Shown here: in pieces, positions 15,443-28,668 of the stretch | Layout of the letters: every line of letters starts with the position of its first letter | How positions within the stretch are numbered: the stretch's first letter is position 1 | Assembly: GCA_007127745.1 (NCBI GenBank) | Contig: SKYV01000062.1 | Span: forward strand, 1 to 49,154 | Reading direction: 5' to 3' | Source: Balneolaceae bacterium | GTDB taxonomy: Bacteria > Bacteroidota > Rhodothermia > Balneolales > Balneolaceae | Length of the DNA: 49,154 nucleotides | Translations under genes and position numbers: made by a program | Notes under the pieces: model-generated | Told to the model about the DNA's origin: nothing | The model's input: the letters and a program-made list of their open reading frames with translations, nothing else | Databases searched by the model: none

Positions 15443-16885
15443 TTAAACAGCGTAGTAGGATGTAATCAGTTCAATTAGCCCGGTAGTTGGCAGAACCGGC
15501 TCAATTCCATAATAGACAGTTAATACTGCAAGAATAACGAGAGTGGATTTGAAAACAAATCCGGGCCTTCTCATAGAATATTCTTTGTGAGACTCTTTAA
15601 AGTAAAGGTAAACCATCACCCTTAAATAATAGTAAACACTTGCTGCACTGGCCAATACACCAATAATTGCAAGCGGTATAAGTCCGGCTTGAACAGCAGC
15701 AGCAAATACATAGTATTTACCTACAAATCCAACGAGCGGCGGAATTCCCGCAAGTGAAAAAAGAAATATGGAGAGTGTAACACCCATCACCGGAACTTTG
15801 AAACCGAGCCCTGCATAACTGTCTATCTCAGTGAAATCGAGTCCGTGGTTACGCTCGTAATAGGCTATCACCCCAAAAGCTCCAATATTCATTAGTGTAT
15901 AGGCAAACAGGTAATATAAAACTCCGGAGTAACCTGCGGCTGTCCCGGCTGCAAGCCCCACCATTAAATAGCCCGCATGGGCAATGCTTGAATAAGCAAG
16001 CATCCGTTTCACATTGTCCTGGGCCAGAGCAATCAGGTTGCCAACAATCATCGTCAGAATGGCCACCACCTGGATTACATTTGTCCAGTCGCCCGCTTCC
16101 GTTCCGGGGAGCATACGTGTCAAAATCAAAATAAATGCCACAAATGTTGCCGATTTGGCAGCCGTAGCCATGAATGCTGTAAGTGTGGTGGGCGTGCCCT
16201 GATATACATCCGGAGTCCACATATGGAACGGTACGGCAGCAATTTTGAAAAAGATACCTACCAGAAGCAAGCCTGATCCGGCCAAAAAGAGAAGTGTTGG
16301 CTCTGCGGCTGCAGCTACTTCATTCAGGTTTGTGTGGCCGGTAGCACCATAGATCAGTGTAATTCCGTACAATAAAAATCCGGTCGAAAATGCACCCAAC
16401 AAAAAATATTTCAAAGCGGCTTCAGCGCCGGTTTTTTCAGTTTTCATCAAACCGGCCAGAACATAGAGGCAAATCGACATGGTTTCCAAGCTCACAAAAA
16501 ACGAAATCAAATCGTTGGAAACGGCAAGACCGAGCATACCGGTGGTTGCGAACAGAATCATTGCATATACCTCTCCGTTATGCAGATCCACATCCCTTAG
16601 ATAATCTCTGGAAATTATAACACAAAACAGTGCACCAAGCAGCACGATAAATGTTCCAAAGGCTCCGGTGCCGCCGTACACAATCATACCGTAAAAAGCG
16701 GTGCCGGATTCTCCAAACATTGCCTGAATAGAAATGAGCAATGCAATTGCCAGGCCGCCAACAGCAAATCCATATGTAACGTGCATGCCTTTTTTGAAAG
16801 CATCGAGCAGGAGTACCAGCAGGCCGGCAGCAGCCACTATAATACCGGGCAAAAATACTTGTAAGTCGTGTAAATAATCCATCAA
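15443..16885 (-). CDS. nuoN: NADH-quinone oxidoreductase subunit N
   Basis: 480 aa; FFKIAAVPFHMWTPDVYQGTPTTLTAFMATAAKSATF, KRMLAYSSIAHAGYLMVG. Confidence 0.96.
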   Translation of the reverse strand: MMDYLHDLQVFLPGIIVAAAGLLVLLLDAFKKGMHVTYGFAVGGLAIALLISIQAMFGESGTAFYGMIVYGGTGAFGTFIVLLGALFCVIISRDYLRDVDLHNGEVYAMILFATTGMLGLAVSNDLISFFVSLETMSICLYVLAGLMKTEKTGAEAALKYFLLGAFSTGFLLYGITLIYGATGHTNLNEVAAAAEPTLLFLAGSGLLLVGIFFKIAAVPFHMWTPDVYQGTPTTLTAFMATAAKSATFVAFILILTRMLPGTEAGDWTNVIQVVAILTMIVGNLIALAQDNVKRMLAYSSIAHAGYLMVGLAAGTAAGYSGVLYYLFAYTLMNIGAFGVIAYYERNHGLDFTEIDSYAGLGFKVPVMGVTLSIFLFSLAGIPPLVGFVGKYYVFAAAVQAGLIPLAIIGVLASAASVYYYLRVMVYLYFKESHKEYSMRRPGFVFKSTLVILAVLTVYYGIEPVLPTTGLIELITSYYAV

Positions 16886-16940
16886 CGATTTATTTTTTTA
16901 ATAAACTCAATAACGTAGAACCTCACTGACAGACAACATG

Positions 16941-17225
16941 TCAGCCGGAAATTTTATCAATCGTTTTCGCAAGTTTAATGTCTTTTCCTGTAACTTTACC
17001 GCCGGCATCGTGAGTACTAAGCTCAATTTTTACATTATTATAAACATTAAACCACTCGGGGTGATGTCCTTGTGCTTCAGCTTCAAATCCTACCCTTACC
17101 ATAAATGCCAAAGCTTGCTTAAAATCCGAAAACGTAAACTCTTTTTTCAGTTTATCATCTTCGAAAGTCCAGCTATCGAGAGCAGTTAATTCTTTTTTTA
17201 TTTCATCGGACGATAATGCATTCAT
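16941..17225 (-). CDS. phhB: 4a-hydroxytetrahydrobiopterin dehydratase (pterin-4-alpha-carbinolamine dehydratase)
   Basis: 94 aa; GHHPEWFNVYNNVKIELSTHDAGGKVTGKDIKLA, the PCD signature. Confidence 0.93.
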   Translation of the reverse strand: MNALSSDEIKKELTALDSWTFEDDKLKKEFTFSDFKQALAFMVRVGFEAEAQGHHPEWFNVYNNVKIELSTHDAGGKVTGKDIKLAKTIDKISG

Positions 17226-17236
17226 AATAGTCAGTT

Positions 17237-18853
17237 TTAATCTTTTGTAACTACAAGTTTCTGTTCAGTTTGATGTTCCTTCAGATCATAAATTTTTGCT
17301 GTCCATTCGGGCAGTTCATCTGTATTGGTGTTTTGCAATACTGCTATACTCTTCTCTTCAGTTTGTGTGATGAATGTATCCACCCACTCTTCAGAATATT
17401 GAGTGAAATCAACTGGACGAATGCCAATCCAAACCATAAATATTACCAGTGGGATTAATAACCCAATTTCTCTGGCATTCAGGTCAACAAGTTTCTCATT
17501 TTCTTTAATTGTGATCGGGCCAAACATCACACGTTGATACATCCAGAGCATATAAACGGCAGCAAGAATCACACCAGTCGCACCCAGTATGGCGTACACC
17601 TTATGATCATATAAAACAGACATAAAGGTGCCGTTCAAAATCAAAAATTCGCCGACAAAACCATTCAACCCCGGCAACCCGATGGAAGCCAGTGTAGCAA
17701 TCATAAAAAGTGTGGCATAAACCGGCATCTTTTTGGCAATCCCTCCGAAATCTGAAATCATTCTTGTGTGCCGGCGGTCATAAATCATACCCACAACAAG
17801 GAAGAGCGCACCGGTGGAAAGCCCGTGGTTGATCATCTGAATAATGGCCCCCTGTACCGCAATTGTGTTAAAGGCAAAAATGCCGAGTACCACAAATCCG
17901 AGGTGGCTGACAGAAGAGTAGGCTACCAGCTTTTTCACATCTTTTTGAACCATAGCCACCAGTGCACCATAAATAATGCCAATGACGGCAAGAACAGCCA
18001 TCCACGGAGCAAATTCCATAAAAGCGTTCGGAAATACCGGCATGCAAACACGAACGAGGCCATAGGTTCCAAGTTTCAGCATAATTGCGGCAAGAACTAC
18101 CGAGCCGGCTGTAGGCGCTTCGGTGTGAGCGTAAGGGAGCCATGTATGAAACGGAAATAGTGGCACTTTGATACAAAATGCAAGAGCAAACGCCAGGAAA
18201 AGCCATGTTTGTTCAACCAGTCCGGGGGTGTATTCAGGACCTGATATAAATCTCCAATCAGCTGAAAACTCATAAATTCCGGTAGCAGCTCCGGCATTGT
18301 AGCCCAGATAAATTAATGCAACCAGCATGATGAGCGAACCTACCAGCGTATAAATAAAAAATTTGATGGTAGCCCGTATTTTATCGCTCCCGCCCCATAT
18401 TCCAATCAGGAAGTACATGGGAATCAAAGAGAGTTCAAAGAAAACGTAAAATACCACCAGATCGAGCGAGGCAAAAACACCCAGTGATGCGGTCTGTAAA
18501 ATCAGCAGCATCGAATAGTAGCCGATCAGGCTTTTTTTGACGGAACTCCATGATGCCAAAATTACAATGGGGCCAAACAGGGTTGTGAGCATAAACAGTA
18601 GCAAACTCAACCCGTCGAGACCCACCAGATATTTGATATCCATCCCAGAAAAAATCGGTGATCCTTCCGTCAGATATTGAGGTACAGCAGAATTCACCAC
18701 ATCAAAATTAAAAAGCAATGGAAGAGACAGAAAAAAGGTAGCCGTGGTTATAATCAGGCTGGTCCATTTTACAGCTTCATCTGTTTTGATGAACAAAAAT
18801 GCAGCAACACCAAGCAGCGGCAGATAAATTGTGATATTTAATAATAACTCCAT
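17237..18853 (-). CDS. nuoM: NADH-quinone oxidoreductase subunit M
   Basis: 538 aa; FELSLIPMYFLIGIWGG, FCIKVPLFPFHTWLPYAHTEAPTAGSVVLAAIMLKLGTYG. Confidence 0.97.
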   Translation of the reverse strand: MELLLNITIYLPLLGVAAFLFIKTDEAVKWTSLIITTATFFLSLPLLFNFDVVNSAVPQYLTEGSPIFSGMDIKYLVGLDGLSLLLFMLTTLFGPIVILASWSSVKKSLIGYYSMLLILQTASLGVFASLDLVVFYVFFELSLIPMYFLIGIWGGSDKIRATIKFFIYTLVGSLIMLVALIYLGYNAGAATGIYEFSADWRFISGPEYTPGLVEQTWLFLAFALAFCIKVPLFPFHTWLPYAHTEAPTAGSVVLAAIMLKLGTYGLVRVCMPVFPNAFMEFAPWMAVLAVIGIIYGALVAMVQKDVKKLVAYSSVSHLGFVVLGIFAFNTIAVQGAIIQMINHGLSTGALFLVVGMIYDRRHTRMISDFGGIAKKMPVYATLFMIATLASIGLPGLNGFVGEFLILNGTFMSVLYDHKVYAILGATGVILAAVYMLWMYQRVMFGPITIKENEKLVDLNAREIGLLIPLVIFMVWIGIRPVDFTQYSEEWVDTFITQTEEKSIAVLQNTNTDELPEWTAKIYDLKEHQTEQKLVVTKD

Positions 18854-18871
18854 GCTGATCTTAAAAAATCT

Positions 18872-20890
18872 TTAAAAGAGTAATAATGTGAGTACCAGAA
18901 TGACACCGATGATCATAAACAGTGCATAATTACTGGTAATTCCGGTTTGAATGTATCTGAGTAAACTTCCGATCAGGCGAACTGTGCCGGCAACGGCATT
19001 TACAAATCCATCAATAAATTTCATATCAAACACAGCAAGAACCTTGTCGGAAAATTTCACTGTGGGTTGTACAATAAGGCCTTCGTAAACCTCATCAAAA
19101 CTGTATTTGTCTTTCCAAACCTGATAGAGTTCACCAAATGCAGAAGAGATTTTTTTATCTGATGCCTCCTGGCCATCATCGGAATACATTCTGAACGATA
19201 CATAAACCCCGGTTACAGCCACTGCAGTAGCAAAAATCATCAAGACCCACTCGGCGGGGATTGAAAGTGTGAGCGGAATATCGGCAGCAATTGGGCTCAT
19301 ATAACTTCCCAGCCAGTTGATCGCTCCCTCACCCCCAAAAGTTTTGGAAATAAAGTTTGGCACTCCTATAAATCCGCCAACCACAGAAAGGCCAGCCAAA
19401 GACCAAAGCGGAACAGTCATGCTCGACGGACTTTCGTGCAGAAATTCTTCTGCATTCTCGGCTCCCTTCACTCTTTTTGGAAGTTTAAAACTGCCGTGGA
19501 AGGTCGTTACCGTAAGGCGGAACATATAAAAAGCAGTAAGGAATGCGGTGATGGTTGCCACTCCCCACAACAGGAAATACATGGCTCCGGCAAACTCACC
19601 AAAGCCCATATTAAAGGTATGCATTAAAATTTCATCTTTCGAAAAGAAACCTGCCAACGGTGGAATACCTGCAATGGCAACCGTTGCAATCAAAAATGTT
19701 TTATAGGTAGAGGGCATATATTTCCGCAGGCCTCCCATATTGCGAATATCCTGCGGATCGAAATGTACATCTTTTCCTTTGTCATGCAATTTATGTTCAA
19801 CATGGTGCATAGTGTGGATAACAGAGCCCGAGCCGAGGAAGAGGCAGGCTTTGAAAAATGCATGAGTTACCACATGAAACAGTGCAGCCGTGTAGGCGCC
19901 AGCACCCAGTGCAAGAAACATAAATCCAAGCTGGGACACAGTTGAATAGGCAAGAACACCTTTTATATCGTATTGCGTGATGGCAATAGTTGCTGCCACT
20001 ATGGCCGTCAGTGCACCAATTACCGCGATAATCATCATCACTTCCGGGCTCATTACATACATCGAAGACATTCGGGTAATCAGATAAATACCGGATGTAA
20101 CCATGGTTGCCGCGTGGATTAGTGCAGACACCGGAGTGGGGCCGGCCATCGCATCGGGCAGCCAAACAAACAATGGAATCTGGGCACTTTTACCGGTTGC
20201 CCCGATAAACATCAGAAAAGCTATCCAGAATACAGCATCGCCGGTAAATGCATCCAGATTATTCAGAATCACATCAAAATTCAGGCTGCCAACGGTCTGG
20301 AAAATCCAGAAAATTGCGATCAGAAAAGCAAAATCACCCACCCTGTTATATAAAAATGCTTTTTTTGCAGCATCCGATTTTATCATATCGGTGTACCAAA
20401 AGCCAATCAGCAGATAGGAACAGAGCCCCACGCCTTCCCAGCCAAGAAACAGAAGCAGCAGGTTATCTGCCAGCACAAGGTTCAGCATGGCGAAGATAAA
20501 CAGGTTCAGAAAGGCAAAATATTTCCAGTAACCGGGATCGTCTGCCATATAACCAATCGAGTACAGATGAATTAACGCACCCACACCGGTAACCACCAGT
20601 GCCATACTTAAGGAAAGCTGATCCAGTTGGTAGGCAAAATCAACACTTAGATTTCCGACATCAAACCATGTGAACAATTTGGCATGAATAGCACCGCCAT
20701 CGCCGGAAAAATTCAGAAAAATATAGGCTATAATGAGAAAAGGAATAAATACTGCTGCGTTGGCAAGGGCCCCGATAATGTTTTTCTTCTTTCGATACCC
20801 ATCAAACAACAGCCCCAAAATACCGTTGAGCAAAAATCCAAGAAGCGGTAAACCAATAATCAGACTTACGAGCGCTGTAGGTGATTCCAT
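18872..20890 (-). CDS. nuoL: NADH-quinone oxidoreductase subunit L
   Basis: 672 aa; GWEGVGLCSYLLIGFW, ATGKSAQIPLFVWLPDAMAGPTPVSALIHAATMVTSGIYL, HAFFKACLFLGSGSVIH. Confidence 0.97.
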   Translation of the reverse strand: MESPTALVSLIIGLPLLGFLLNGILGLLFDGYRKKKNIIGALANAAVFIPFLIIAYIFLNFSGDGGAIHAKLFTWFDVGNLSVDFAYQLDQLSLSMALVVTGVGALIHLYSIGYMADDPGYWKYFAFLNLFIFAMLNLVLADNLLLLFLGWEGVGLCSYLLIGFWYTDMIKSDAAKKAFLYNRVGDFAFLIAIFWIFQTVGSLNFDVILNNLDAFTGDAVFWIAFLMFIGATGKSAQIPLFVWLPDAMAGPTPVSALIHAATMVTSGIYLITRMSSMYVMSPEVMMIIAVIGALTAIVAATIAITQYDIKGVLAYSTVSQLGFMFLALGAGAYTAALFHVVTHAFFKACLFLGSGSVIHTMHHVEHKLHDKGKDVHFDPQDIRNMGGLRKYMPSTYKTFLIATVAIAGIPPLAGFFSKDEILMHTFNMGFGEFAGAMYFLLWGVATITAFLTAFYMFRLTVTTFHGSFKLPKRVKGAENAEEFLHESPSSMTVPLWSLAGLSVVGGFIGVPNFISKTFGGEGAINWLGSYMSPIAADIPLTLSIPAEWVLMIFATAVAVTGVYVSFRMYSDDGQEASDKKISSAFGELYQVWKDKYSFDEVYEGLIVQPTVKFSDKVLAVFDMKFIDGFVNAVAGTVRLIGSLLRYIQTGITSNYALFMIIGVILVLTLLLF

Positions 20891-21213: not shown

Positions 21214-21777
21214 TTGATGAACAAGCTCTCAACGTACAGCCTTGGCCTCTCTTTCATCTCGCTGATGATCTTCTGGATTGTGATGAGCGGTTTCCTGGAT
21301 TTTATCCATTTAGGCATGGGTGTAATTACGGTTGCCGGGGTTATGTATGTCAACTATCAGCTTAAAACACACCGGTTTTTCCATGATGACATGGACGATT
21401 TAAGCGAATTGCGCGTAGGCAGAGCGTTCTATTATGTACTCTGGATGATCGGGCAAATTGTTACCGCCGGATTTCATGTTGCAGGCATTATTATCAAACC
21501 GTCCATGCCAATTCACACAACCATTGTAAAGTTCAAAACCGACCTTCCGAGTGCTCACGCCCGCATGATTCTCGGAAACTCTATAACGCTCACTCCCGGC
21601 ACACTTACTGTAGATATTGACGGTGAATACTTTACCGTCCACTCGCTTGACGATAAATCTTACAAAGGAATTGTGAGCGATAAAATGCCCCGTGAAGTTC
21701 TCAAGCTGTTTCAAAAAGATGAACGGCAGGTAATTCACGAACTGGAAATTATTAAAATAGCCGGGAAGGAGAACTGA
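21214..21777 (+). CDS. mrpE: Na+/H+ antiporter subunit E (MrpE/MnhE, MbhA-like)
   Basis: 187 aa; membrane protein with SAHARMILGNSITLTPGTLTVDIDGEYFTVHSL. Confidence 0.92.
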   Translation: MMNKLSTYSLGLSFISLMIFWIVMSGFLDFIHLGMGVITVAGVMYVNYQLKTHRFFHDDMDDLSELRVGRAFYYVLWMIGQIVTAGFHVAGIIIKPSMPIHTTIVKFKTDLPSAHARMILGNSITLTPGTLTVDIDGEYFTVHSLDDKSYKGIVSDKMPREVLKLFQKDERQVIHELEIIKIAGKEN

Positions 21778-22049
21778 TGGATCACTTTTTTCTTTACAGT
21801 GCGGTTATACTGACCATTATTATTGCAGTACCACTGTACAGGGTTTTGTACGGGCCCACCCTTTTTGACAGGCTTCTGGCAACCAATGCCATTGCCACAA
21901 AAACCATCGTACTGATTTGTCTGATTGGTTTTCTGTTCGGGCGCATCGATATGTTTATTGACATCACCCTTGCCTATGCTGTGCTTGGATTTATCGGATC
22001 GCTGATTATCGCCAAATTTGTATCAATCAAAAATGTGGAACGCGAATGA
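21777..22049 (+). CDS. mrpF: Na+/H+ antiporter subunit F (MrpF)
   Basis: 90 aa; YRVLYGPTLFDRLLATNAIATKTIVLICLIGFL, MrpF-like; overlaps mrpE stop. Confidence 0.9.
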   Translation: MDHFFLYSAVILTIIIAVPLYRVLYGPTLFDRLLATNAIATKTIVLICLIGFLFGRIDMFIDITLAYAVLGFIGSLIIAKFVSIKNVERE

Positions 22050-22378
22050 CAGAAATCCAACACATAATTAGTATACTTTTTGTTGTCATCGGCATATTCT
22101 TTATGTTCGTTGGCAGTGTGGGAATTATCCGCCTGCCCGATTTTTATTCCCGAACACACGGCATAAGTAAAAGTGACACGCTCGGAATTATTTTTGTCAT
22201 TGTAGGCCTGGTCATCTACGAAGGTTTTACCCAAAGCAGTCTCAAATTGCTGCTAATTGTTCTGTTCATTGCACTCTCTAATCCTGTGGGTACCCATGCA
22301 CTGGCCAGGGCAGCACTGAAAAGCGGGCTCAACCCATTTTTTAGTGATGATGAAATAAAAGAGGAGGCCAAAAAATGA
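22046..22378 (+). CDS. mrpG: Na+/H+ antiporter subunit G (MrpG)
   Basis: 110 aa; FVGSVGIIRLPDFYSRTHGISKSDTLGIIFVIVGLV, NPVGTHALARAA. Confidence 0.93.
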   Translation: MTEIQHIISILFVVIGIFFMFVGSVGIIRLPDFYSRTHGISKSDTLGIIFVIVGLVIYEGFTQSSLKLLLIVLFIALSNPVGTHALARAALKSGLNPFFSDDEIKEEAKK

Positions 22379-22620
22379 TTTGGGAACTGGAACTCATAAT
22401 TTATGTTTTTCTGGCACTCTCGGCCGTGGTAGCACTCGAAGTGACGGATATGCTGGTAGCAGTAGTTATGATGACTATTTTCAGCTTTTTAATGGCACTT
22501 CTGTTTATTGCAATGGGCGCTATTGATGTTGGATTTACCGAAGCCGTAATCGGTGCCGGTGTTACCGGTATTTTGTTTGTAGTTGTTGTATTTCGAACCT
22601 CAAGAAAATCAAACGATTGA
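22375..22620 (+). CDS. MbhD-like subunit (equivalent to part of the MrpA C-terminal region)
   Basis: 81 aa; LSAVVALEVTDMLVAVVMMTIFSFLMALLFIAMGAIDVGFTEAVIGAGVTGILF. Confidence 0.85.
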   Translation: MIWELELIIYVFLALSAVVALEVTDMLVAVVMMTIFSFLMALLFIAMGAIDVGFTEAVIGAGVTGILFVVVVFRTSRKSND

Positions 22621-22925
22621 AGATACTTAAAGTACTCATACTGGTTCTTTTCGCTGCCGTACTGATCTATGCAGCATCTGATTTACCCTACCGGGGTGAA
22701 CCCGACAACCTTATGCATGCTGAACAGAGCATCACCAACACAAGAGTAATGGGCAGCTACTTTATCCAAAATGCATACAGAGATGCCAGAACCCCCAATA
22801 TGGTTACGGTTGTACTCGGCGATTACAGAAGTATTGATACTTTTGGTGAGCAGGTTGTAATCTATACGGCAGGCCTTATTGCCCTCCTGGTTCTACGAAA
22901 ATCGAAACGGAGGAGGAAGAAATGA
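22617..22925 (+). CDS. MbhE-like subunit (MrpA C-terminal / MrpB N-terminal-like)
   Basis: 102 aa; TTG start overlapping the preceding TGA stop; FIQNAYRDARTPNMVTVVLGDYRSIDTFGEQVVIYTAGLIALLVLR. Confidence 0.8.
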   Translation: MKILKVLILVLFAAVLIYAASDLPYRGEPDNLMHAEQSITNTRVMGSYFIQNAYRDARTPNMVTVVLGDYRSIDTFGEQVVIYTAGLIALLVLRKSKRRRKK

Positions 22926-23362
22926 ACAAACCCTTTCAAACTCCGATTGTACTGCTCGGCGCCCGATTGCTCAGCCCCTATATTATGGTATTTGGCTGGT
23001 ATGTGATATTCCACGGCCATTATAGTCCCGGCGGCGGATTTCAGGGAGGTGCCCTGCTGGCTGCTTCCATTCTGTTGATGCGTGTTGCTGGCGGCCGAAC
23101 GGTTGCCGAACTACAGATCAAAGAATTTGCCACCACACCACTGGCTGTAATCGGTGTTATGATTTACTTTGCCACGGGTTTGGTGGCCGTTGCAATGGGT
23201 GGATATTTCCTCGATTACGGCATGCTGCCAATTCCCGGCATGGAGCCGGATTGGCTCAGATACACCGGAATTCTGATCATTGAAGTGGGAATCGGCCTTG
23301 CCGTAATGGCCATCCTGGTAATGATTTATGACAACATGGTAAGAGGAGAAGATTATGGCTGA
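22922..23362 (+). CDS. mrpB: Na+/H+ antiporter subunit B (MrpB/MnhB)
   Basis: 146 aa; GWYVIFHGHYSPGGGFQGGALLAASILL. Confidence 0.94.
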   Translation: MNKPFQTPIVLLGARLLSPYIMVFGWYVIFHGHYSPGGGFQGGALLAASILLMRVAGGRTVAELQIKEFATTPLAVIGVMIYFATGLVAVAMGGYFLDYGMLPIPGMEPDWLRYTGILIIEVGIGLAVMAILVMIYDNMVRGEDYG

Positions 23363-23723
23363 CTTTTTTCTTGGGCATTACGCATACTGGTTCACAATCA
23401 TCCTGCTCTGTATTGGCCTTTATGGTATACTATTCAAAAAAAATCTGATTAAGAAAACCATTGGTCTGGCCATCCTTCAGATTTCTGTGGTGCTCTATTT
23501 TGTTTCTGTAGCCTCAAAGTGGGATGCAACCGTACCGGTTCTCGATCCCAATATTCCTGTTGACCAGGTTGCCAACTATTTGAATCCGCTGCCACACACC
23601 TTAATGCTCACCGCTATTGTTGTGGGTGTTGCCACACTTGGAGTAGCATTTACACTTTTGATTGCTGTTTACAACCGCTACGAAACGCTCGACGAAGAAG
23701 AACTGATAGATAAAATTCAATGA
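23355..23723 (+). CDS. mrpC: Na+/H+ antiporter subunit C (MrpC, NuoK-like)
   Basis: 122 aa; LCIGLYGILFKKNLIKKTIGLAILQISVVLYFV...PLPHTLMLTAIVVGVATLGVAFTLLI. Confidence 0.94.
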   Translation: MADFFLGHYAYWFTIILLCIGLYGILFKKNLIKKTIGLAILQISVVLYFVSVASKWDATVPVLDPNIPVDQVANYLNPLPHTLMLTAIVVGVATLGVAFTLLIAVYNRYETLDEEELIDKIQ

Positions 23724-25201
23724 TAGAGTCGCACCTTCCAGCATATATCGCCTTAACTTTTTTGCTGTTTTCGGTACTGATTCCGGCATTCGGGCTCTGG
23801 AGAAATGAGCTTTCCCAGCCACTTGCTGTGATCGGGTCCGGACTGGCTGCGGGCTTCTCCATCTACGGATTTTTCACCTATCTGCAGCTTGGCAGTATCC
23901 GTTATTTCTTCGGCGGCTGGGAACCGCCTATTGGCATCGAGTTTGTTTACGACGGTCTTTCGGGATTTTTTGTACTCGTTATTAATACCGTAGCATTTTT
24001 TGTGATTCTCCATTCACACCACATCGCAAAAAAAGAATTTCCCGGTAAAGAGATGCCTTACTACGCCTTGGCCATGCTGATGATGCTTGGTTTCAACGGC
24101 ATGATTCTTACAGGCGACCTTTTTAATCTCTATGTATTTCTTGAAATTGCCTCACTGGCAGGTTACGCCATTATCGCCATCGGTGACAAACAGGCCCCTT
24201 ACGCTGCGTTCAGATACCTGATTATCGGAACGGCCGGAGGTACCCTCTATCTGCTCGGTGTCGGTTTTCTGTACACCATAACCGGTACGCTCAACATCAT
24301 CGATATGACCGCGATGCTGCCTCAATTTGCAGGCAGCACAGCCGTGGTAGCCGCTCTCATCCTGATGATTGTCGGCATCGGTGTGAAAGCCGCCCTGTTT
24401 CCAATGCATGGCTGGCTGCCCGACTCATATACTTACGCATCATCCAGCTCAACTGCACTAATTGCCCCCATTGGCACAAAAGTAGCAGCCTACATCCTAT
24501 TCAGAATTATTCTGTGGTTATTTGGAGTTGAACTGACCGATGCCGTGGTTCCGTTCACATACATTATCGGGGTGCTGGCATGTATCGGAATTTTGTACGG
24601 TTCAATTATGGCCATCGCCCAGACTGAAATGAAACGCATGCTGGCTTACAGCTCTGTTTCCCAGATCGGGTATATTATAATGGGCTTGAGTCTGGCCAAT
24701 CCCTGGGGTTTTGCCGGTGCATTGCTGCATGTTTTGAACCATGCCGTCATGAAAGCCGCACTATTTATGATAAGCGGTCAATTGAGACTAAAAGAAGGCC
24801 ATTCAAACATTAGCCTGTTTGATGACACCTATCGAAAAAAATATCCCTGGACTATGGCCGCATTTACCGTGGCTGCTATTTCGATGGTGGGGCTTCCTCC
24901 GCTTGCCGGATTTTTCAGCAAGTGGTATCTCGCCCTGGGGACAATCGACAACAGCAACTGGCTGTTTCTTGCAGTGATTTTAATAAGCTCGCTGCTCAAT
25001 GCGGTTTACTTTTTCCGCATACTTGAAAATGTATATATGATGAAACCCGACAAGGGACAAAAAGAAGCGTCCGATGCCAAACGAAATGAAGTGAGCGGCA
25101 GCATGCTCTGGCCAACCAGCATATTGGCAGTCAGTCTGATCGTCATTGGTTTTGCCAACGCAGTAATTGTTGGAGTTTTGCTTAATATTTTCCCGATGTA
25201 A
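23720..25201 (+). CDS. mrpD: Na+/H+ antiporter subunit D-like protein 1 (MrpD/NuoL-M-N family)
   Basis: 493 aa; NLYVFLEIASLAGY, GIGVKAALFPMHGWLPDSYTYASSSSTALIAPIGTKVAAYILFR, PPLAGFFSKWYLALG. Confidence 0.95.
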   Translation: MIESHLPAYIALTFLLFSVLIPAFGLWRNELSQPLAVIGSGLAAGFSIYGFFTYLQLGSIRYFFGGWEPPIGIEFVYDGLSGFFVLVINTVAFFVILHSHHIAKKEFPGKEMPYYALAMLMMLGFNGMILTGDLFNLYVFLEIASLAGYAIIAIGDKQAPYAAFRYLIIGTAGGTLYLLGVGFLYTITGTLNIIDMTAMLPQFAGSTAVVAALILMIVGIGVKAALFPMHGWLPDSYTYASSSSTALIAPIGTKVAAYILFRIILWLFGVELTDAVVPFTYIIGVLACIGILYGSIMAIAQTEMKRMLAYSSVSQIGYIIMGLSLANPWGFAGALLHVLNHAVMKAALFMISGQLRLKEGHSNISLFDDTYRKKYPWTMAAFTVAAISMVGLPPLAGFFSKWYLALGTIDNSNWLFLAVILISSLLNAVYFFRILENVYMMKPDKGQKEASDAKRNEVSGSMLWPTSILAVSLIVIGFANAVIVGVLLNIFPM

Positions 25202-25262
25202 CACTACCCCGCTGGCGGGTTATTTGATATGAAATTGTTTTTTTAAAATTTAAACTAAACCG

Positions 25263-26735
25263 ATGGATCTTTCCCTCGTACCTTTATTGGCCGTTTTGGT
25301 TTCGCTTGTAGCGGTTATTCCGATACTGCTGAGTTCGGACAAACCGAATCTGCGTGAAACCTGGACCATTCTGGCAGCTGTTATCAAATTCGGGCTTGTA
25401 CTTTTGCTTGTGCCCGGCGCTATTGAAGGCAAATCCGTAGAACTCCATCTTATCGATCTGGCACCGGGTATGCCGCTTGCGCTCAATGCCGATCCGCTCG
25501 GTGTCTATTTTGCCGTGATCGCTTCCGGCCTCTGGATTTTCACCTCCTTCTATTCCATTGGATATGTTCGGGGAGCCGGTGAACACAAACAAACAAGATA
25601 TTTTGCCAGTTTTGCAGTCTGTCTGTCGGCAACCATCGGTATTGCATTTTCTGCCAACCTGCTAACCTTCGTTCTTTTCTACGAAATTCTTACCGTTGCC
25701 ACTTATCCGCTGGTCATTCATAACGAAAGTAAAGAAGCCATCAATGCCGGGCGAAAATATCTGGCATTTACCCTGACTGCCGGGCTGCTTTTAGTGGCCG
25801 GTTCAGCAATGGTATACATCTACACCGGCACTATCGATTTTACCCCGGGCGGTGTATTCAGTGGAGTTGAACTTCCGCATACCGCCATGCTGGTACTCTT
25901 TATCATATTTTTGGGAGCTGTTGGCGTGAAGGCCGGTATCATGCCGATTCATAGCTGGCTGCCCGCAGCCATGGCCGCACCCACACCGGTCAGTGCACTT
26001 CTTCACGCTGTGGCTGTTGTAAAATCAGGAGTATTTGCCGTAATCCGGGTTGTCGGTTATGTTTTTGGCACCGACGTGATGGCCAGCTACGGTCTCGGTG
26101 ATATTTTGATTGTCATTGCCGGAGCTACAATTATTTTGGCTTCACTCATCGCCTTTGCGCAGGATAATTTAAAACAGCGGCTCGCCTATTCTACGGTTGG
26201 GCATTTGTCCTATATTGTTTTAGGAGTGGCACTGCTCACACCCTTCGGAATGCAGGGCGGAATTATGCACATTGCGGCACACGCCACGTTGAAGATTACA
26301 CTCTTCTTCTGTGCCGGAGCCATATATGTGAACCTGAAACGGAAAAATATCAGCAACCTGAACGGCATTGCCAAAGTGATGCCCTGGACGATGGCCGCTT
26401 TCACCATTGGATCGATGGGCCTTGCCGGTATTCCGCCAATCAATGGATTTTTTAGTAAATGGACTCTCGCTTTGGGCTCTCTGGACGGAGATATGGTTAT
26501 ACCGGTTATTGTATTGGTGGTGAGCGGCCTGCTGAATGTGGGATACTTTTTCCCGATTATTTACCGGGCCTATTTTAAGCCGGGCGAAGGTCTTGAAGGC
26601 TACGGCGAAGCCAGTCCGCTGATGGTGGTGCCTATTATGGTAACAGCTATACTGTCAGTGCTTTTTGGATTTTTCCCGAATCTGTTTTTCGGGCTTTACG
26701 ACCTGGCCGTCAACATCAGTTTATCACTTTTTTAA
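25263..26735 (+). CDS. Na+/H+ antiporter subunit D-like protein 2 (NuoL/MrpA-D family)
   Basis: 490 aa; FVLFYEILTVATYPLVIH, GVKAGIMPIHSWLPAAMAAPTPVSALLHAVAVVKSGVFAVIR, GFFSKWTLALG. Confidence 0.94.
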   Translation: MDLSLVPLLAVLVSLVAVIPILLSSDKPNLRETWTILAAVIKFGLVLLLVPGAIEGKSVELHLIDLAPGMPLALNADPLGVYFAVIASGLWIFTSFYSIGYVRGAGEHKQTRYFASFAVCLSATIGIAFSANLLTFVLFYEILTVATYPLVIHNESKEAINAGRKYLAFTLTAGLLLVAGSAMVYIYTGTIDFTPGGVFSGVELPHTAMLVLFIIFLGAVGVKAGIMPIHSWLPAAMAAPTPVSALLHAVAVVKSGVFAVIRVVGYVFGTDVMASYGLGDILIVIAGATIILASLIAFAQDNLKQRLAYSTVGHLSYIVLGVALLTPFGMQGGIMHIAAHATLKITLFFCAGAIYVNLKRKNISNLNGIAKVMPWTMAAFTIGSMGLAGIPPINGFFSKWTLALGSLDGDMVIPVIVLVVSGLLNVGYFFPIIYRAYFKPGEGLEGYGEASPLMVVPIMVTAILSVLFGFFPNLFFGLYDLAVNISLSLF

Positions 26736-26747
26736 CTCATAAGCGCC

Positions 26748-26960
26748 ATGAAGAAGATTCACTGGATCATATTAGGCATTTTATTCGTCATTACGCTTGT
26801 ACTTGAATTTACCGTACTGGCCGGATATGACAGCCACTGGTGGAATGCCATTCCGGCTTTTTATGCCATTTTCGGATTTGTGATGTGTTATGCTCTTGTT
26901 TATTCGGCCAAATTTATTGCAAAAAAAATTGTAAACAGAGACATCAACTACTATGATTGA
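26748..26960 (+). CDS. Small two-TM membrane protein of the antiporter operon
   Basis: 70 aa; two hydrophobic stretches, HWWNAIPAFYAIFGFVMCYALVYSAKFIAKK; overlaps the next CDS by 8 nt. Confidence 0.75.
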   Translation: MKKIHWIILGILFVITLVLEFTVLAGYDSHWWNAIPAFYAIFGFVMCYALVYSAKFIAKKIVNRDINYYD

Positions 26961-28668
26961 AATTCTCGCCATACCGGGTGTAATTTTGTTAATCGGGGCA
27001 GCTCTGCTTTCTTTCTTCTCCGAGAAATTGCGCCCCGCTCTGTTTCTGATATTTCCCCTGCTTGCAGCCGCAGTAATCATCCTTCGCCCTGAAGGATACA
27101 GTGTAACCGGATCGCTGCTGCATTACGATCTGGTACTGATGCAAACCGATTCACTCAGCAATCTGTTCGGAATTGTTTTTGCACTTGGAGCTTTTGTTGC
27201 CGGTGTTTACGCATTTCATATGAAGGAGCTGGGGCAGCAAATCTGTGCACTTGGCTACGCAGGTGGTGCACTCGGTGTGGTCTACGCAGGGGATTTGCTC
27301 ACCCTTATCATTTTCTGGGAAATTATGGCTGTTGCTTCCACCTGGCTGATCTGGGCGCAACGCACCCCGGAAACCGATGCAGCCGGAATGCGCTATCTGA
27401 TCTATCACATTCTTGGCGGCGGACTCCTTTTTGCCGGAATCTTGTGGCATTCAGTCGTTGCCGGGTCCATTGCAGTCGAAACCATTCCGATGGAATACAC
27501 ACCGGCAAATATCCTGATGTTGCTTGGAGTCGCTATCAACGCAGCCGTAATACCACTGCATACCTGGCTGTCTGATGCCTACCCCAAAGCCACGCTTACG
27601 GGTACCATCTTCATGAGTATTTTCACCACTAAAACGGCTGTTTATGTGTTAATCCGAATGTTTGCAGGCTGGGAGCTGCTCGTATTTTTCGGAGCCGCCA
27701 TGGCCATCTACGGAATCTATTACGCGGTAATTTGTAAAGATATGCGTGAGATACTTTCCTATCACATCATCAGCCAGGTTGGCTATATGGTGGCAGCCAT
27801 CGGTGTGGGAAGCGAGCTTGCTGTGAATGGCGCTGCGGCTCATGCATACAACAACATTTTGTATAAATCTTTGATGTTCATGGCCGTCAGCGCCGTGATG
27901 TATTCAACCGGAACCAGTAAAATGTTCCATCTTGGCGGGCTGTACAAAAAAATGCCGTGGGTTCTCGGGCTTTATGTTGTTGGCGGCCTCTCCATCTCCG
28001 GTATTCCGTTGTTTGCCGGATTTGTGAGTAAGGGTATGGTGATTGATGCAGCCGGGTACGGTGGTTACGAAACCATCATGCTGGTATTGCTTGTAGCCTC
28101 TGTGGGTACCTGGCTCAGTGTCGGCCTCAAGCTACCCTACTTCACCTGGTTCGACAAGCAGGATTACGAGGGCGAGTTAAAACCGGTTCCGCTGAACATG
28201 TATATCGCCATGGGCATTCTTGCCTTTGCCTGTATTTTCTATGGAATTTTCCCGAATGCCCTCTACACGTTCCTGCCTTTCGAAACCGATTATCAGCCAT
28301 ACACGGTGTATCACCTGGTTGAAATTACTCAAATTGCCCTGTTAACATTTGTGGGATTTTGGCTTCTCAGAAAAAAACTGGCTCCCGAACTTACAACCGT
28401 TCTCGACCTGGACTGGTTCTACCGAAAAGCCGCTCCGGCAACCCGACTGGTGTTTGTACAGAAAGTGGATACTTTTTACGGCCGGGTTGAAGATGGCATC
28501 CAGGCTTCTGCCCGCTATCTTTCCGGTAAGTTTCAGAACCCGATGCGGTGGCTCAATCCATTTACTGATGAGGAAAATGAAGCATCAAGCTACAGCCCCG
28601 CTATGGAAGTGGTGATGAGCTTCATTCTGCTCTGCTTTTTGATCTTTGCCATCATCTATTTTTTATAA
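26953..28668 (+). CDS. Na+/H+ antiporter subunit D-like protein 3 (MrpD/NuoL family, extended C-terminus)
   Basis: 571 aa; LIIFWEIMAVASTWLIW, INAAVIPLHTWLSDAYPKATLTGTIFMSIFTTKTAVYVLIRMF, GIPLFAGFVSKGM. Confidence 0.94.
   Translation: MIEILAIPGVILLIGAALLSFFSEKLRPALFLIFPLLAAAVIILRPEGYSVTGSLLHYDLVLMQTDSLSNLFGIVFALGAFVAGVYAFHMKELGQQICALGYAGGALGVVYAGDLLTLIIFWEIMAVASTWLIWAQRTPETDAAGMRYLIYHILGGGLLFAGILWHSVVAGSIAVETIPMEYTPANILMLLGVAINAAVIPLHTWLSDAYPKATLTGTIFMSIFTTKTAVYVLIRMFAGWELLVFFGAAMAIYGIYYAVICKDMREILSYHIISQVGYMVAAIGVGSELAVNGAAAHAYNNILYKSLMFMAVSAVMYSTGTSKMFHLGGLYKKMPWVLGLYVVGGLSISGIPLFAGFVSKGMVIDAAGYGGYETIMLVLLVASVGTWLSVGLKLPYFTWFDKQDYEGELKPVPLNMYIAMGILAFACIFYGIFPNALYTFLPFETDYQPYTVYHLVEITQIALLTFVGFWLLRKKLAPELTTVLDLDWFYRKAAPATRLVFVQKVDTFYGRVEDGIQASARYLSGKFQNPMRWLNPFTDEENEASSYSPAMEVVMSFILLCFLIFAIIYFL

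Follow-up and report, generated by a model that had tools for sequence, protein, structure and literature searches.

Operon architecture and classification

Positions 21214-28668 of a 49,154-nucleotide stretch of contig SKYV01000062.1 (assembly GCA_007127745.1; the whole stretch is hereafter the window), from a Balneolaceae bacterium belonging to a salt-loving bacterial group, hold eleven tightly packed plus-strand genes, most overlapping by a few bases, that encode Mrp-type antiporter proteins in the order E-F-G-MbhD-MbhE-B-C-D1-D2-sm-D3 (Table 1). D1, D2 and D3 denote three large antiporter-like subunits and sm a small protein of 70 residues. Matches above the Pfam cut-offs were obtained for MNHE, MrpF, MrpG, MbhD, MbhE, MnhB, Oxidored_q2 (MrpC) and Proton_antipo_M (D1 and D2), D3 passes the NCBIfam cut-off for NF009310/PRK12668 ('Na(+)/H(+) antiporter subunit D'), and sm matched no family in Pfam or NCBIfam. 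A previous sequence-only reading of the window had named all of these genes with the correct order, strand and coordinates, but counted ten instead of eleven; its observations of a gene order resembling archaeal Mbh (E-F-G-A'-A''-B-C-D), of three antiporter-like subunits and of the lack of any hydrogenase gene in the window were all borne out.

Homologs of MrpB, C, D, E, F and G and of the C-terminal module of MrpA stand together in this one operon, as expected of a CPA3 antiporter, and both the fused mrpA (or mrpA-mrpB) and the A-B-C-D-E-F-G order of canonical groups 1 and 2 are absent. Group 3 Mrp operons have been defined as those lacking mrpA and carrying mrpD only, sometimes in several copies (PMC8415708), a definition that fits the operon, so that the class is already known and the novelty at class level implied by the sequence-only reading does not stand. 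On the basis of gene content and residue patterns, the operon is a distinct, widespread subtype of this class, in which D2 would nevertheless function in the manner of the N-terminal module of MrpA (MrpA-N).

Table 1. Genes of the eleven-gene operon, with positions in the window and the evidence for each assignment (TM, transmembrane helix; AF2, AlphaFold2)
Gene or product	Position	Strand	Evidence and features
mrpE (MNHE)	21214..21777	+	PF01899, E 1e-29; start TTG 21214 or, more plausibly, ATG 21217
mrpF	21777..22049	+	PF04066; Asn37 (codon 21885-21887) for conserved Asp (D35, A. flavithermus MrpF)
mrpG	22046..22378	+	PF03334
MbhD-like, first part of MrpA C-module	22375..22620	+	PF13244; PDB matches MbsD/MbhD
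MbhE-like, second part of MrpA C-module	22617..22925	+	PF20501; conserved DYR..DT.GE motif
mrpB	22922..23362	+	PF04039
mrpC	23355..23723	+	PF00420; Gln42/hydrophobic46/His81 signature; His81 codon 23595-23597
D1, MrpD/MbhH-type antiporter-like subunit	23720..25201	+	PF00361, trees, key residues
D2, MrpA-N/NuoL counterpart	25263..26735	+	TMH8 histidine switch His248, codon 26004-26006; tree
sm, 70-aa two-TM protein, C-terminus YYD	26748..26960	+	Alignment of 48 sequences; AF2
D3, third antiporter-like subunit (PRK12668/NF009310)	26953..28668	+	Asn196 (codon 27538-27540) at TM7 Lys site

D1, D2 and the splitting of MrpA

Phylogenetic analysis of the large subunits under a mixture model placed D2 as sister to MrpA and NuoL (support 98/94) and D1 nearer to MrpD, MbhH and NuoN; in a FastTree phylogeny, D3 forms a clade of its own. 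Among the subunits compared, D2 is also the only one outside MrpA and NuoL to carry the 'histidine switch' described for His248 in TMH8 of B. pseudofirmus MrpA (PMC9568556), with both the histidine and its partner threonine present in 36/36 sequences. By tree position and key residues, D2 is the counterpart of MrpA-N and NuoL, providing the proton module of this type expected of a CPA3 antiporter, and D1 is MrpD-like; the lysine of TM7 (Lys-TM7) is kept in both. Because D2 groups with MrpA and NuoL and carries the histidine switch, MrpA is, judged by homology, split into D2 and the MbhD-like and MbhE-like proteins rather than missing. The sequence-only reading was therefore right about the split but not about the loss of the N-terminal module, and D3 alone is additional.

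These findings bear on the reading that the operon forms part of an ordinary canonical Mrp system with a fused mrpA elsewhere in the genome, the very gene that the sequence-only reading had named as able to overturn it. The host assembly (3.07 Mb in 287 contigs, 94% complete; its named relatives are Balneolaceae) may lack some genes, but a search of this 94% complete assembly found no fused mrpA and a single mrpE, and its nine Proton_antipo_M genes are fully accounted for by the nuoL-M-N adjoining the operon, a second nuoL-M-N cluster on another contig, and D1-D3. Together with the filling of the MrpA-N role by D2, the recurrence of the same gene set in relatives assembled into few contigs, and a genome (G017) in which a canonical-looking mrpA/mrpD pair apparently exists in addition to an intact eleven-gene operon, this makes a hidden mrpA hardly credible.

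A second possibility is that the operon is what remains of an archaeal membrane-bound hydrogenase (MBH) after loss of the hydrogenase module, as the gene order matches mbhA-H and as D1, MrpC, MrpF and the MbhD-like protein score highest against chains of MBH and the related sulfane reductase MBS in the PDB. A specific Mbh origin of D1, suggested by the FastTree phylogeny, was neither confirmed nor rejected by the mixture-model tree, in which D1 is not placed specifically with MbhH (approximately unbiased [AU] test, p 0.17). Neither D2 nor D3 is an Mbh subunit, the MrpF aspartate and MrpC polar residues kept in MBH and MBS are lost in the operon, and P. furiosus itself possesses a stand-alone Mrp in this order (PMC8415708), such that we consider descent from a hydrogenase very improbable. 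The large subunit of the PF00346 type that accompanies antiporter genes in archaeal Mbh and Mbs is likewise absent, with a PF00346 search of the genome recovering two NuoD-like proteins only and no Mbh-type large subunit.

The genome-wide hydrogenase search called for by the sequence-only reading yielded a single, unlinked [NiFe] hydrogenase large subunit (PF00374) on a 3.7 kb contig (C50). Its locus (L154, 84-3411) also contains a maturation protease and hypA/hypB-like genes. As PF00346 does not detect it and it lies apart from the operon, we regard this hydrogenase as unrelated to the mrp genes; it is apparently of a soluble type.

D3 and its small partner protein

In D3, asparagine replaces Lys-TM7. 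This change was observed in 36/36 sequences of the tree set, in each of the 49 sequences of a broader alignment and, with one serine, at nearly all of approximately 110 loci with a readable motif. In all other antiporter-like subunits compared, with the exception of MbsH, this position is a lysine. According to PMC7419157, Lys-TM7 is essential and absolutely conserved and forms a pair with Glu-TM5 at points of coupling; the same paper locates proton paths at TM8 and TM12. Apart from one exception, D1, D2 and D3 all keep Glu-TM5, Lys-TM8 and Lys-TM12, and D3 itself does so in 36/36 sequences; sequence comparison indicates that D3 lacks the histidine switch.

An AlphaFold2 model of D3 (pLDDT 90) comprises an antiporter-like core and a C-terminal extension consisting of TM15 (452-471), a helix of 33 residues (494-526) and, at the terminus, TM16 (551-570). 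The top PDB match of the model is MrpA (7qru_A), followed by MrpD, NuoL and related chains, and the agreement of the predicted fold with MrpA/NuoL extends to the C-terminal lateral helix. The small protein sm is a conserved partner of D2 and D3, and no structural relatives were found for it in the PDB by sequence or by fold. Given the TM7 asparagine in place of lysine and the predicted C-terminal lateral helix, D3 probably acts as a cap and clamp on the line of pump modules rather than as a full coupled proton channel.

Alternatively, D3 could serve as a full third proton pump, in which case the complex would have three proton channels and move more H+ per cation than a canonical two-pump Mrp. 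Such a role would be in keeping with the retention of the TM5, TM8 and TM12 residues, and with related complex I forms described as having extra pumping subunits (PMC9040806). The loss of the essential Lys-TM7 in essentially all D3 sequences and the missing histidine switch argue against it, and we regard a third pump as possible but doubtful.

Altered residues of the proposed cation path

Further evidence for a distinct subtype comes from the small subunits. The site of MrpF Asp35, which lies at the proposed cation entry in A. flavithermus (residue roles from PMC7419157 and PMC9568556), is never aspartate in members of the subtype (0/58), whereas the canonical, MBH and MBS chains in the comparison have aspartate there. 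The same pattern was recovered in an independent sample of the phylum, with aspartate present in all of approximately 16 motif-resolved genomes without D3 and in 0/7 genomes with D3. In MrpC (reference positions in A. flavithermus numbering), the position of His40, residue 46 here, is hydrophobic in 66/66 sequences, Gln42 replaces Ser36 in 65/66, and His81 replaces the canonical Gln70 in 66/66. In the related canonical operons tested, MrpC His37/His40 are likewise not histidine but asparagine, so that the subtype is more clearly marked by the change in MrpF.

Other residues are retained, including MrpF Asp29, the MbhD-type glutamate (Glu56 here, corresponding to MbhD Glu69 and glutamate in 55/55 sequences), the D/E pair of the MbhE-like protein, the MrpG histidine and the MrpE proline and histidine. 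The operon thus departs from CPA3 antiporters in a trait that is typical of them without being strictly defining, namely the conserved MrpF and MrpC cation-path residues. That these residues are changed throughout the subtype suggests a remodelled cation path with altered selectivity or route.

Distribution of the operon

The same operon is present in approximately 26 Balneolaceae genomes where contigs permit, nearly always adjoining nuoL-M-N, and in several of these (L097, L053, L055, L057 and L059) it lies between nuoJ-K and nuoL-M-N on the opposite strand; in Fodinibius roseus (L097, 1758-12572) nuoK directly follows D3. Within the order, the D3-free relatives examined have a canonical operon with fused mrpA. 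In the host phylum, NF009310 scored above its cut-off in 25/396 sampled genomes. Across a collection of species genomes, at least 543 loci with D3 relatives were confirmed, and among the best 80, which were fetched, a hand count identified the complete eleven-gene order at 32 loci spread over about ten phyla: Balneolota, Ignavibacteriota, Spirochaetota, Aminicenantes, Verrucomicrobiota, Thermodesulfobacteriota, Acidobacteriota, Chloroflexota and Bacillota, together with the archaeon Methanoperedens. The conservation of this order in approximately 26 relatives and 32 complete loci shows that the operon is not a chance assembly.

Several loci display variations on this arrangement. Tandem D3 genes, with a second sm-D3 pair after the first, occur in L120 and L124; in L136 sm-D3 has moved ahead of E-F-G...D1-D2; and in L119 and L120 the order is E-B-F-G-MbhD-MbhE-C-D1-D2-sm-D3, as it is in L134 as far as the contig extends. 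In a Spirochaetia genome (L084, 15633-20700), two more divergent Proton_antipo_M-like genes lie downstream of a complete eleven-gene operon.

A D2-sm-D3 cassette shared with complex I

D2, sm and D3 are also found together inside complex I (NDH-1) operons. In Sinorhizobium the order is nuoJ-nuoK-D2-sm-D3-nuoM-nuoN, with the cassette in the place of nuoL, and the same arrangement was identified in loci of Desulfobacterota, Nitrospirota, Acidobacteriota and Verrucomicrobiota. Gene context and phylogeny show D2-sm-D3, present inside complex I of some nitrogen-fixing bacteria, to be a transferable module shared by Mrp and NDH-1, whichever way the exchange ran. In a tree of concatenated D2 and D3, a branch with support of 100 sets the NDH-1 versions apart as one clade, so that, in terms of tree topology, a single exchange is sufficient to explain them; in an AU test, an Mrp-only clade of D3 gave p 0.65.

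The association with nuo genes raises the question, put forward in the sequence-only reading, of whether the eleven-gene complex docks on complex I or another redox module and is redox-driven. The adjoining nuoL-M-N in nearly all relatives with a readable flank, the flanking nuoJ-K and nuoL-M-N in several Balneolaceae, and the occurrence of the cassette in NDH-1 operons elsewhere are consistent with this idea. However, the operon keeps a complete cation half with all seven small Mrp-type genes and includes no redox or anchor gene, the intact nuoL-M-N alongside has a nuoL of its own, no nuo cluster lies near the fetched Mrp loci outside Balneolaceae, and no Mbh-type large subunit was found in the genome, as noted above. 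Docking therefore finds no support at this locus and appears very unlikely.

The nuoL-M-N genes of the window (15443-20890) stand without nuoA-K, and nuoJ-K are absent beside the operon. A second nuo cluster, on contig C125, includes nuoH, the only NuoH match in the genome. Given these two observations, the first NDH-1 of the host may be split across contigs or incomplete in the assembly.

Comparison with known systems

Among the closest known systems is the stand-alone P. furiosus mrpEFGBB'CD operon (PMC8415708), which shares the E-F-G order, a separate MrpA C-module, B, C and D, and the lack of both a fused mrpA and a redox module. It differs in that it has just one mrpD and encodes MbhD-E as one fused protein, whereas the operon of the window has D2, sm and D3 in addition, and changed cation-path residues. 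The group 3 locus of 'Ca. Nitrospira alkalitolerans' (PMC7784846) looks similar, in that its mrpD is followed downstream by two additional nuoM/nuoL-like genes, which may correspond to D2 and D3; the small protein and residue changes do not feature in the part of that text concerned with the locus.

In the rhizobial 'green' complex I and Complex_I_3 of 'Ca. Manganitrophus', two MrpD-like subunits take the place of NuoL (PMC9040806, citing Degli Esposti and Martinez-Romero 2016). In Sinorhizobium these subunits are D2, sm and D3, with the same TM7 asparagine in D3. The cassettes are homologous, but in the 'green' form it lies between nuoK and nuoM and belongs to an NADH:quinone oxidoreductase, whereas in the window it accompanies a complete set of mrp genes. 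Canonical group 1 Mrp (Anoxybacillus 6z16, Bacillus pseudofirmus 7qru) shares all functional modules, with D2 corresponding to MrpA-N and D1 to MrpD; the operon differs from it in gene order, split MrpA, the third antiporter-like subunit, the small protein and the MrpF and MrpC residues. Finally, archaeal MBH and MBS (6cfw, 6u8y) are alike in the order of the Mrp-like part and in a separate MbhD, and MBS also has two large subunits, but the operon lacks their hydrogenase or sulfane-reductase module.

A literature search, to which Chadwick et al. 2018 and the original 'green' complex I paper (Degli Esposti and Martinez-Romero 2016, cited here through PMC9040806) were external, returned no description of the three-subunit subtype, the invariant D3 asparagine, the MrpF and MrpC changes or the small protein; parts of these may already be stated in those two works, and the latter may have followed the rhizobial subunits back to Mrp operons of this kind.

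Proposed mechanism

Taken together, we lean towards viewing the operon as encoding a stand-alone group 3 Mrp (CPA3) cation/H+ antiporter, driven by the proton-motive force, with D3 and sm as an added terminal piece. By homology, MrpE, F, G, B and C and the MbhD-like and MbhE-like proteins make up the cation half, with D1 beside it in the MrpD position and D2 as a separately encoded proton module bearing the histidine switch. Entry of protons through D1 and D2 would then expel a monovalent cation through the small subunits, and sm and D3 would act as a terminal clamp or a weakly coupled channel.

A number of points weigh against this scheme. Antiport, for the operon and the relatives considered here, is a property that we infer from sequence, and as the cation-path residues are altered, the operon could be one that does not carry Na+ at all. 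The clamp role of D3 derives from a predicted monomer in which the lateral helix is of moderate confidence, with blocks of pLDDT 55-83. As the proton-path lysines of TM8 and TM12 are kept, D3 may still conduct protons. It may instead work as a complete third pump, the role that its relatives are taken to have in the literature on complex I (PMC9040806). A bolder version of the stand-alone antiporter, in which the subtype forms a functionally distinct, pan-phylum CPA3 class with a rebuilt cation path (the aspartate gone from MrpF, the histidine moved within MrpC), an ion or route other than that of Na+ in canonical Mrp, and a non-coupled D3 clamp, is possible but less likely than not.

Implications

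Mrp and complex I share ion-moving parts, and the question for both is how many protons each subunit moves. The D2-sm-D3 cassette presents a near-invariant natural loss of a supposedly essential lysine within two different machines, which makes the D3 asparagine a natural experiment on the need for the TM7 Lys/Glu pair in pumping. It also calls into question the tallies of 'extra pumping subunits' made for rhizobial-type complex I on the basis of subunit number; if D3 is indeed non-coupled, the related 'four-pump' complex I would have three coupled pumps only. Furthermore, the paired changes in MrpF and MrpC open the disputed cation route to direct testing by mutagenesis.

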